Assembly (NCBI GenBank): GCA_033439295.1
Contig: JAVTLE010000001.1
Coordinates: 62,001 to 126,000 of the forward strand
Origin: Deuterostichococcus epilithicus
Lineage: Eukaryota; Chlorophyta; Trebouxiophyceae; Prasiolales; Stichococcaceae
DNA: 64,000 bases
Direction: 5' to 3'
Of this stretch, positions 1 to 23,199 are shown piece after piece. The translations under genes and the position numbers were made by a program. Under the pieces are notes generated by a model, which made no database searches, had not been told where the DNA came from, and saw nothing but the letters and a program-made list of their open reading frames with translations. The first letter of the stretch is position 1; the number at the start of each line of letters is the position of its first letter.

Positions 1-3000
1 GTACGTCTTCCGCTTTGCGCAGATGCTGTTCCTGGCCTTCGCGGTGGCGACGCTGTTCCCCAAGCCGCGCATGACCTTCGACACTGTGGAGGGGGGCTCC
101 CTCCTCATTGGCGCCCTCTTGTGAGTGATCAGAAGTAGCCGCCTAAATATCCATCGATGTCGTCCGCCCATGCTGCATGCAGATTGCTGCGCATCACCAG
201 GCCAACTAGCGTGCGGGAGCGCTTCTTTCGGGTGTTGCCTGACGGCTTAGTCGCAGTTGGGTCGCCAGGCATCTGAACACACTGCATCTTTAAAAGCCTC
301 CCTCAGATAACTGACCGTGGTCGCGTCGATTCCGCTGTGCAGCTTTTCCATCCTGCAGTTCCTGTTTGACGGTGCGTCCTTGGCCCTCTATGATTTCCAC
401 ATGATCACTCGGCCTCTGCAGTCAAAATATTTCGGAGAAAGTCATGTTGTCGACTTGAACAGCCCTGCTGCAAGCGCAAGTCGACGTACAGTTGCAAGTG
501 TTTGAGGTTGACTCACAGTGTCTGAGTAAACACTGCAGCCATGACGGAGATGGTGCTGACAATCGAGCGCCTTCCTGTCTACTACAAGCAAATCGAGAAC
601 CGGTGCGCGTGCCTGGAGCACCTGTTGCACTGTCTATGGGTCGCACACCCAAATCATGAAGCCGCCTCTGTCGCTGCCACTGTGTTGCCAAGGCCATGCT
701 TTGCTACTTGTTTGCAGGTCTCCTCTGACAGCGTTGCCATGCAACCTGCAGGTTCTTCCCTTCGTGGTCTTACGTCCTGCCTACAACACTCATGAGGCTG
801 CCCTACTCCCTGACCCAGGTGCTATTGACGCCCTGCTTTCCCCATCCATATTGTTATGGCTTCAGCCAAAGGCGGATTCTCGCTGCCGCTGTTTCAAAAA
901 AGCGCTGGTCAAAAACAGCGCACTTGCTGGTTGCCTGGTCGCTGCTGCTGCACCGCACGCACAGTGCTCCTGCTGAGCATTCATGCTGCCACCAGTTGCC
1001 CCGTATCCTGCAGACCCCGGTGACGGCCTAGGTACACTGTGCAGGCTATCCTGTGGAGCGTGATCGTCTACTGGTCCGTTGGCCTCGCTCCCGAGGCCGG
1101 CAGGTGCGTGCGTCTGGTGCCGACCCTCATGACAGATAGCTGTGCGCAGACCAGCGTTTGCCGCCAAGGCACACATTGAGCCGGAGCCATCCGTCTGTCG
1201 CCAGCCCAGCCCAGCATGCAGGCTCCCTTGCGCACTCAAGCAAAGCGCTTGCTGAATCCGAGTGCAACTCTCGCACGTTGACTTGCAGGTTCTTCATCTT
1301 CGTGGCCATCCTGCTCATCATGCACCAGCTGGGCGTGGCCATGTTCCGCACGTTTGGCGCACTGTGCCGCTCTGAGACCGTGGCCAACACCTTCGGTGGG
1401 TCTCCGTGTATCATATATTTCCGGAGCTCTGGCCTGGTCATTCGGGGTGATAGTTTGCCTGAGAGATTAGGTGGTTGCGGGAGACCTCAGCAGGAGCGGG
1501 AGATTGCCGCGCCCGCTTCTGCAAAGTAAGGATTTAGGGTTCAACCTGCTTTCGCGCGCCCGCCGCTCCCGCCGCCCACAGTGCTGCAGCTGCGCGCCAC
1601 TCGGGGCCTGTGACATCATCGTGCAGCTGCCCATCACGATCCCCAGGCTGCGATCTGCGTCCTCAAACGCCTCTTCAAGCCTCCCACGAATGCTTGCTAC
1701 TCATTGCTGGCCCGCAGGCAGCTTTTTCTTTCTGTCTATCATGGTCCTGGGCGGCTTCGTGCTGGCCAAGCCCGACATCAAGATCTGGTGGAATTGGGCA
1801 TATTACGTCAGCCCGATCACGTATGCACAGGTGGGTCGCTGCCTCCTGGAACCCTTCGTGCCCTTACACCCTTTCTAGGTATAGAACCTCAGGGCCAGAT
1901 GCAGCCCTCCGCAAATGTTCCTCAGCCGCAATCGTTTCTGGCAGCCTGCCTGTCCTCGCCCATGCTGTGCATACGAGCTCGTAACCCTCCTCTGCTATGT
2001 TCGTGGTGTCTGCTTGGGCACACTGAGGTGGCGGCGGTGGCTGCCCTGTAGCGCATGTTGACGGCTGCACGGCACGGACCATGCATGAGCACTGTGCCGC
2101 CTGCCGCCGGCTGCTGGCCCTTGGACCGACGCTGTGCCATTCAACCAACCTGTAGAATGCCATCACGATCAACGAGTTTGCCGCCGGCCGGTGGGCAATC
2201 CCTGACGTCAACACCAACGCCGGCGGCCGAACAGTGGGCGACCAGATCCTGTTCACCCGCGGCATTCCCCTCGGTGCGTCACCGTCGTTGACTCCCCTCT
2301 CACCACGAAACCCCCCAAGCGTGTCCATTGTCTGACATGGGTGCAGCAGCGGTTTTTCTGCTGTCGAGGTCTCACCGTGCGGCACATCAGTTCGCCGCCT
2401 GTACCGCCTGTCATCGCCTCGGCGCGGCGCTTGCAGCAGCGCCTCAGGGCATCAGATAGCTGATGCGGCTCCAAACCCAACCCCTAGACCCTGAAAATCT
2501 GTGTGCAGGCCGCTTCTGGGTCCCGCTGTCCATTGGCGCCCTCATTGGCTTCGTGATCCTCTTCAACCTGCTGACCTGGGTCTTCCACGCGGTCCTCGGG
2601 GGTGCGCGTCGTCTCGCTGTTCCTTCGGTCTTGCAGGGCACGGACCCTGCTGCACAGCTGCACGCTCGCGAATCCGAGCTGCGCAGCCGTGGCTGTCTCC
2701 CTGCAAGTCTGCTTGCAGCGGCTGCAAACAGCTTCCGCAGCTCCTGCAGGGTGCGGTGCTGTGCCCTGCATCTGAGGCGTGGCGTCCGTTGTGCTGGCAC
2801 TGCCACTTTTGTGCGCCCCCAGCGGGTGTCCAACACCTTTCACTTTGAAGGCAAGTGGCGAGACACATCGCCGCACCTTAGCACGGAGCGGCACATGCAG
2901 GGAGGAGATGAGGATGCATGGAGCAACAGGCTGCTGTCGCAGTGATGTCCACTCCCAAGATCGCGGAATCTGTGTTGCCTGCAGCGTTGAACATGTCGCC

Positions 3001-20821: not shown

Positions 20822-20825
20822 AAAA
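20822..20825 (-). terminator. RNA polymerase III T-stretch of the permuted tRNA gene
   Basis: On the minus strand the sequence GCTTTTG follows the last base of the 5' half (20836) by about ten bases. TTTT is the standard Pol III stop, so the transcript would end after both halves. Confidence 0.75.
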
Positions 20826-20835
20826 GCTTTGATCG

Positions 20836-20872
20836 TTCGAGTCTACCCCCTTAACCACTCGGGCAAAGTTGC
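20836..20872 (-). other. 5' half of the permuted tRNA-Ser (positions 1-37)
   Basis: Read on the minus strand from 20872, it holds the 5' acceptor strand, the D arm with A-box-like GAGTGGTTAA, the 5' anticodon strand and the anticodon. It lies downstream of the 3' half. Confidence 0.92.
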
Positions 20873-20895
20873 CGACAGTGTGAAACACTGAAAGT
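20873..20895 (-). other. Intervening segment between the tRNA halves
   Basis: These 23 nt link the discriminator base of the 3' half to base 1 of the 5' half. They can form a hairpin (CAGTG, loop TTTCA, CACTG). In known permuted tRNAs this piece is removed by the normal 5' and 3' end-processing enzymes after the transcript has been circularised. Confidence 0.85.
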
Positions 20896-20939
20896 CGCAA
20901 CCTGCAGGATTTGAACCTGCGCAGCTCTCGCTAGTAGAT
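20896..20939 (-). other. 3' half of the permuted tRNA-Ser (positions 38 to discriminator)
   Basis: Read on the minus strand from 20939, it holds the 3' anticodon strand, the long variable arm, the T arm with the B box GGTTCAAATCC, the 3' acceptor strand and G at the discriminator position. Confidence 0.92.
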
Positions 20940-21007
20940 TTCTCGGACAACTTTTGCACCACGCACAGTTCCACTTTGGTACAGATGCCACTTCCGACGA
21001 GTTCGCA

Positions 21008-21018
21008 ATATATATATA
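21008..21018 (-). promoter_or_regulatory. TATA-like stretch upstream of the permuted tRNA gene
   Basis: An alternating AT run lies about 70 bases upstream of the 3' half on the minus strand. Upstream TATA-like elements help Pol III in plants and algae. The match is simple, so this is suggestive only. Confidence 0.4.
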
Positions 21019-22257: not shown

Positions 22258-23199
22258 GCTGATATGCCAACCGCTGGCCCGGCCCGCCGCTCCATCGCCT
22301 CGCACGGCAGCATCAACGCTCGCTGTCATGCATGTCCCGCCACCCCGCCGAGCACCGCTGCCCTTGACGCCAAACATGGCTGTTGCTCATCGTCAGTAGT
22401 GGTTCGCCTACCAGCCCTTGCGCACACAGCGACCCAGCTTGGACCCTCGCCCTAGCTTAACTTCAGCGTTTCACCGCTTGTCGCCGCACCCTCGCTATAT
22501 CGTTTGTACAACTAACCCTCGTGCTGTGCCGAGCCTGGGACACAACGCCTTTGAAAGTAACGAGTGCCCGTTTTGCACCGTGCAGGATACCTGCGCTGCG
22601 CTCCGCCTGGAGATATCTATGTGTTTGGCAGCAGCAGGCTGCAGGCACGCTGCTGCACACTGGTTGTCCGCATCAGGTGATTACAGACAAGGGAAACAGC
22701 CCAGGAAGTTGAAGCATCAGACAAGCAACTAATGAACTCCCGATGCTGCTGATGATCAGATCTGCCCTCCCATTTCGAGTCGATGACAGCTATTCACGTG
22801 AAAAGGCGCAGAGCCGTGAATGTTCGCATATCCCGCATTTGGGATGCCCTCCAACGTCTGGCAGTTCGCCGCGATAGCTCGCAAGGCGGCATCATCGCTG
22901 AGATGTTGTTGTATGACCTACTGTATTGCACTCCGCAGCCGACGGCCTGAGGTTCAGATGGCAAATATCAGGTCCAGTGCGACGATTCAATTTATCCGGC
23001 TAAGCAGACTGCTGGCTCCGACGACAACCAACGGTTGCTGCAAACATTGCAGCCTTATATGCAACAATGTTGTCACATGCTGGTGCCCCCCAATGGTGCA
23101 CGACAATGCTAAACTGTAGCATATGCTGCAACCCCCCACAGCTGATGGTAGCAAGGTATGCGATAGCTAGCTGGCAAAACAGGCAGGCGAAAAGTGAAA
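22258..23199. other. Intergenic region, no gene recognised
   Basis: Frames are short and unrelated to any family I know. It follows the weak candidate gene and precedes the 3' end of the secreted-protein gene on the minus strand. Confidence 0.5.

Follow-up and report, generated by a model that had tools for sequence, protein, structure and literature searches.

A putative circularly permuted tRNA-Ser(CGA) gene in the nuclear genome of a green alga

Two fragments resembling the halves of a tRNA-Ser(CGA) lie in inverted order on the minus strand of a 64-kb stretch of green algal nuclear DNA (the window, by which we mean the whole stretch analysed), raising the question of whether they constitute a working gene. 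Judging from the sequence, we consider it highly probable (roughly nine in ten) that the locus is a functional nuclear gene for tRNA-Ser(CGA), circularly permuted and of type II (junction at 37/38). This reading draws on the order of the halves, the rejoined cloverleaf, the splice-type pairing of leader and trailer, the transcription signals and the absence of a missing half nearby. The elements of the locus are the following.

21007..21018, minus strand: TATATATATATT run, candidate promoter element, 68-79 nt upstream of the 3' half
20940..20951, minus strand: leader arm of the junction, in which CGAG (20945-20942) pairs with loop positions 32-35
20951-20947, minus strand: GUUGU within the leader arm, outer-helix candidate that can pair with the trailer
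20896..20939, minus strand: 3' half of tRNA-Ser(CGA), positions 38-73, 44 nt, holding the B box (20917-20907)
20873..20895, minus strand: spacer of 23 nt linking the acceptor-stem ends
20836..20872, minus strand: 5' half of tRNA-Ser(CGA), positions 1-37, 37 nt, holding the A box (20865-20855)
20832..20835, minus strand: trailer arm of the junction, candidate outer helix with the leader
20822..20825, minus strand: TTTT, candidate RNA polymerase III terminator, starting 11 nt past the 5' half

The minus strand therefore reads leader, 3' half, 23-nt spacer, 5' half and trailer, with the B box ahead of the A box, the inverse of the normal order. Rejoined at 37/38, the arrangement that defines type II permuted tRNAs, the 5' and 3' halves make a tRNA of 81 nt, which ARAGORN identifies as Ser(cga); its acceptor stem counts 7 bp, one of them G-U, and it has a 3-bp D stem, a 5-bp T stem, a long variable region and a CGA anticodon. 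The acceptor strands of the two adjoining halves pair with each other at 7/7 positions, and the anticodon stem has six pairs in the ARAGORN drawing, the usual five and one G-U. Eukaryotic consensus features are present (U8, U33, TTC at 54-56, G73) and CCA is not encoded. The coordinates, half order, spacer and 81-nt length given in the preliminary description are thus borne out on the minus strand, as are its acceptor stem with one G-U, its D and T stems, its class II variable arm, its G discriminator and its anticodon; the 5-bp anticodon stem that it claimed agrees as well, save for the sixth pair. Its reading of the locus as a permuted gene is supported by this cloverleaf and, as detailed below, by the junction pairing and the match to a permuted model. 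The spacer falls inside the range of 1-74 nt published for permuted tRNA genes (PMC3978253) and, taken alone, forms a hairpin beyond the acceptor stem (6 bp, 3-nt loop; z -3.39). The fold of the whole precursor is only mildly better than that of shuffles (z -1.71).

The 37/38 junction coincides with the intron position of the linear Ser(UGA) and Ser(AGA) genes of the same genome, and its flanks can pair as at a splice site. Loop positions 32-35 (CUCG) form 4/4 pairs with the leader CGAG, leaving a 3-nt AAA bulge beside the anticodon stem; among random window flanks, 4/4 central pairing occurs in 1.6%, and in 0.1% together with an outer helix of at least 3 bp. A strict bulge-helix-bulge form, with GAU/GUC as outer helix, is predicted at -8.7 kcal/mol, against -13.4 kcal/mol for an alternative junction fold that combines a 1x1 loop with a 5-bp outer helix, and -9.6 for a fold with no outer helix. 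The pairing is hence bulge-helix-bulge-like, its strict form being reachable but not favoured, since both alternative folds are lower in energy. At the equivalent place of linear genes, intron pairing is 4/4 in Ser(UGA), Ser(AGA) and Thr(AGU) and 3/4 in Met(CAU) and two Leu(CAG) genes. Random 4-mers reach 4/4 in 0.7-3% and at least 3/4 in 7-23%, depending on the loop, so that the 3/4 pairing of Met and Leu would not be an unusual chance outcome. Comparison of CUUG/CAAG in Ser(UGA) with CUCG/CGAG in the permuted gene reveals that both strands have changed, and therefore that the anticodon difference is matched on the opposite strand. This paired difference provides matched substrates with which to study how the splicing endonuclease of an alga reads permuted precursors.

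Candidate transcription signals flank the locus. Downstream, runs of at least four T were found within 60 nt of all 30 linear nuclear tRNA genes examined, and the TTTT here lies well within that distance. Upstream, TATAW occurs in 3% of 100-nt window tiles versus 9/30 linear genes (within 100 nt upstream), the other 21 having none. In seven of these nine genes the element lies at 28-48 nt, in Arg(TCG) at 74-76 and in one Gly gene at 100, so that the TATA run at 68-79 nt is farther upstream than in 7/9 of the TATAW-bearing conventional genes.

By analogy with the circular-intermediate pathway documented in red and green algae (PMC3978253), transcription, circularisation and use in translation can be envisaged as follows. 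RNA polymerase III would produce one linear transcript comprising leader, 3' half, spacer, 5' half and trailer; the tRNA-splicing endonuclease would cut after 37 and before 38; a ligase would circularise the molecule by joining the cut ends; the 23-nt spacer would be excised by RNase P and tRNase Z; and CCA would be added to give a mature tRNA reading UCG. The genome contains a match to the tRNA-intron endonuclease domain PF01974 (C13:1334698-1334802, E 9.8e-5), which is short and just above the cut-off (27.8 versus 27 bits). The TFIIIC B-block family PF04182 gave no match in the genome, a result that we do not count in favour of transcription from an upstream promoter because intron-split genes can be missed.

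Is this gene the only one of its kind in the genome? A 17-mer pattern of the Ser D arm, allowing up to two mismatches, matched 12 places in the genome versus nine for a reversed control. Two of the twelve sit on the organelle contig C21 (211,271 bp), which encodes PsbD and PsbC; the ten others were read and comprise six that are not Ser-like and four nuclear Ser genes, namely the permuted Ser(CGA) of the window and three linear genes.

C1:1600853: Ser(UGA), linear, with a 23-nt intron
C19:3670973: Ser(GCU), linear, no intron
C19:3652466: Ser(AGA), linear with an intron, labelled Phe with a shifted intron by ARAGORN

BLAST of the genome with the whole locus matched only the locus itself and the Ser(UGA) gene. 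Over the 81 positions, the permuted tRNA shares 70 with spliced Ser(UGA), 57 with Ser(AGA) and 51 with Ser(GCU). A count of other Ser(CGA) genes, which the preliminary description had proposed, thus gave none, because neither the D-arm readings nor BLAST returned a second CGA gene within their sensitivity, the Rfam tRNA search having scored 63 of the 687 genome candidates. The same description held that the genome depends on this gene if it is the only UCG decoder. That it is the only CGA gene found stands; that the genome needs it is plausible but no more, since the intron-containing linear Ser(UGA) might decode UCG by wobble. Baker's yeast needs its single tRNA-Ser(CGA) gene.

The same Ser(UGA) gene lends some weight to the best surviving alternative, that the locus is a permuted pseudogene, a relic no longer transcribed or spliced while UCG is read by Ser(UGA). 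The TATA run lying farther upstream than usual and a strict bulge-helix-bulge that is not favoured would also suit a relic. Such a relic would be expected to lose pairs, whereas the acceptor (7 bp), T and anticodon (5 bp each) and D (3 bp) stems here have kept theirs, and the junction pairing is intact, with both sides changed relative to Ser(UGA); moreover, the T-run is at the expected place and no other CGA gene was found. We therefore regard a pseudogene as unlikely.

A second alternative, that the halves are parts of two tandem intron-containing tRNA-Ser genes or of one linear gene with a long intron, gains some appeal from the proposal that permuted genes originate by tandem duplication of an intron-containing gene (PMC3978253). 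Within 3 kb, no counterpart of the 5' half was found upstream (score 8; shuffled mean 10.4, maximum 13) and none of the 3' half downstream (score 12; shuffled maximum 14), and the acceptor strands of the adjacent halves pair 7/7 together. A weak match to the 3' half does occur about 1.6 kb upstream (22575-22614, minus strand), scoring 18 versus a maximum of 15 in 40 shuffles, and is either a decayed 3' half or chance. Taken together, these results largely refute the tandem or long-intron arrangement within 3 kb and leave it very improbable. A Pfam scan of 10 of the 36 flanking open reading frames listed gave none above the cut-off.

We then return to the permuted gene and to how it can be detected. 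It had been claimed that a linear search misses it, and indeed neither ARAGORN nor Rfam at gathering thresholds returned a single hit in the linear 64-kb window. When each 180-nt tile of the window was doubled, so that permuted genes read as linear, ARAGORN identified one place only, the Ser(CGA) locus, in three tiles (two Ser(cga) calls and one mis-registered Tyr(gta)). Applied to 20 shuffled windows, the same scan gave three places, one each in three windows. A permuted-tRNA-aware search, for example with a covariance model on the rejoined halves, had also been suggested. For a covariance model in permuted layout, we used 13 class I nuclear tRNAs of the same genome, with random spacers and no Ser tRNA; the 13 were taken from 21 constructs, leaving out three Ser and five with short variable loops (Glu, Asp and three Gly), and in the alignment of all 21 the serine variable arms were out of register. 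Run on the window up to E 10, it returned a single match at the Ser(CGA) locus (20926-20836, minus strand, 32.2 bits, E 1.2e-7); its start at 20926 instead of 20939 presumably reflects the lack of a long variable arm in the model. That the locus is a chance resemblance or an error of assembly is hardly credible, for although the doubled-tile scan yields about one chance place per seven shuffled windows (3 in 20), the independent permuted model matches at E 1.2e-7, 70/81 positions are common to Ser(UGA), the junction pairs, the same layout is found on a second contig (described below), and leader and trailer arms that fit would not arise from an assembly inversion. An annotation made with linear tRNA searches would show no Ser(CGA) gene in this genome.

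Beyond the window, one D-arm pattern matched 21 places in the same genome, all of them retrieved, and another matched 22. The doubled-tile scan was applied to 108 loci of that genome (264,501 bases). Ser(CGA) was called in two loci (L001 and L034), which are the same gene, and junction-crossing hits in 19 others, which are probably conventional genes that a tile edge had cut through. A Leu pattern matched 73 places; the six examined comprised four linear Leu genes and two places without a tRNA.

These searches produced several other observations on the tRNAs of this genome. The initiator tRNA-Met was sought with two 5'-half patterns, the first matching nowhere and the second at 45 places, of which three were examined and held no tRNA. 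A T-arm word matched 18 places, among which the initiator was not identified and two were linear Val(AAC) genes; a 5-bp T stem is likewise present in another of the 18 (L147). A BLAST search started from a plant sequence gave an empty, uninformative result. The initiator tRNA-Met may be divergent, interrupted, permuted or simply missed. A nuclear contig carries a tRNA-Phe-like fragment with a broken 3' part (L119, G000:C3:502225-502243, minus strand), perhaps an organelle insertion, because its D arm is also present in a tRNA-Phe of an organelle contig. Three tRNA-Lys(CTT) genes (L030, L031 and L032, on C7, C12 and C18) are identical and nearly so over about 90 nt upstream, a sequence likeness that suggests recent duplication of the gene plus its flank. 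Finally, a repeated unit with a D-arm sequence of Ser/Leu type, GGCCGAGTGGTTAAGC and variants (L044, G000:C19:1869756-1869772, minus strand), is perhaps a tRNA-derived repeat.

Relatives of the permuted gene were sought in other sequences with a pattern in which a Ser D arm comes after a T arm, which matched 50 stretches of viral contigs and seven of genome contigs (57 candidates). Only one has a fully paired 7/7 acceptor stem, at 2241-2342 (plus strand) of locus L114, on contig PBDU01000015.1. Its rejoined halves are called Ser(cga), with a 37/38 junction, a 20-nt spacer, G73 and no encoded CCA, and its tRNA shares 61/81 positions with the window gene and 56/81 with Ser(UGA). Both genes are thus permuted Ser(CGA) genes joined at 37/38, with spacers of 20 nt there and 23 nt here. 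The gene is unannotated, and the contig is filed under a Euryarchaeota MAG. Neighbouring open reading frames code for a beta-ketoacyl synthase extended at its N terminus, a WD40 protein, and a TruB/PUA protein that has part of a dyskerin N-terminal domain and a lysine-rich tail; the window holds no counterpart of any of the three (best E 0.86). PBDU01000015.1 is probably a misbinned eukaryotic contig contaminating the MAG, and its origin is probably green algal.

A further 14 of the 57 candidates have a 6/7 acceptor stem. The discriminator is followed by CCA in all 11 examined, which were therefore rejected as permuted genes and read as adjacent linear genes. At E up to 1, the permuted model matched 415 times in 69 sources. 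We draw no evidence from these matches, since linear genes that lie next to each other in clusters mimic the permuted layout.

How new is such a gene? The preliminary description expected it to widen the range of organisms with permuted tRNA genes. That expectation is weakened on two counts. First, permuted tRNA genes were already reported in 2025 for Auxenochlorella UTEX 250-A (PMC12633428, journal version PMC12636532). Second, permuted Ser(CGA) itself has been published for five genomes with the junction at 37/38, namely O. lucimarinus, O. tauri, M. pusilla, Micromonas RCC299 and the B. natans nucleomorph (PMC3978253), and for the nucleomorph of Amorphochlora amoebiformis, described as carrying permuted Ser(AGA) and Ser(CGA), with none described in two Lotharella species (PMC4494063). 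No further green algal reports were recognised in the literature searched, most subscription papers lying outside it. The locus is a convincing further instance of a gene arrangement that is rare but not new, and adds a well-supported nuclear example in a 46.8-Mb green algal genome.

Permuted Ser(CGA) is now seen in six published genomes (37/38 being given for five), in the window and on PBDU01000015.1. Because the same isoacceptor and junction recur, one ancient permutation versus repeated origins can be tested across chlorophytes. Tentatively, and with more doubt than confidence, we suggest that Ser(CGA) was permuted once, early in green algae, and kept as the sole gene for its anticodon in Mamiellophyceae, in chlorarachniophyte nucleomorphs and in this lineage; if so, the permuted gene would be a stable, constrained state and not a passing accident.

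Among known systems, the red alga Cyanidioschyzon merolae resembles the present case in the order of the halves and has a downstream T-run, an upstream TATA-like element and a circular-intermediate pathway, which would correspond to the candidate signals and the proposed pathway here; it differs in having four junction types, with no serine tRNA among the 11 listed, and a TATA-like element within 50 bp upstream, compared with 68-79 nt here (Soma et al. 2007, cited in PMC3978253). Auxenochlorella is, as here, a non-prasinophyte green alga whose nuclear genome is reported to hold permuted genes missed by linear search (PMC12633428). The nucleomorphs of Bigelowiella natans and Amorphochlora amoebiformis share the isoacceptor, with 37/38 given for B. 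natans, but chlorarachniophyte nucleomorph genomes are reduced and the B. natans spacer is 5 bp (PMC3978253, PMC4494063); Ser(AGA), reported as permuted in both, is linear with an intron here. In Ostreococcus and Micromonas, the published table gives the same isoacceptor, the 37/38 junction, no extra intron and a spacer of 12-28 bp, compared with 23 here (PMC3978253), a likeness read from that table, here in a different green alga with a genome of 46.8 Mb.
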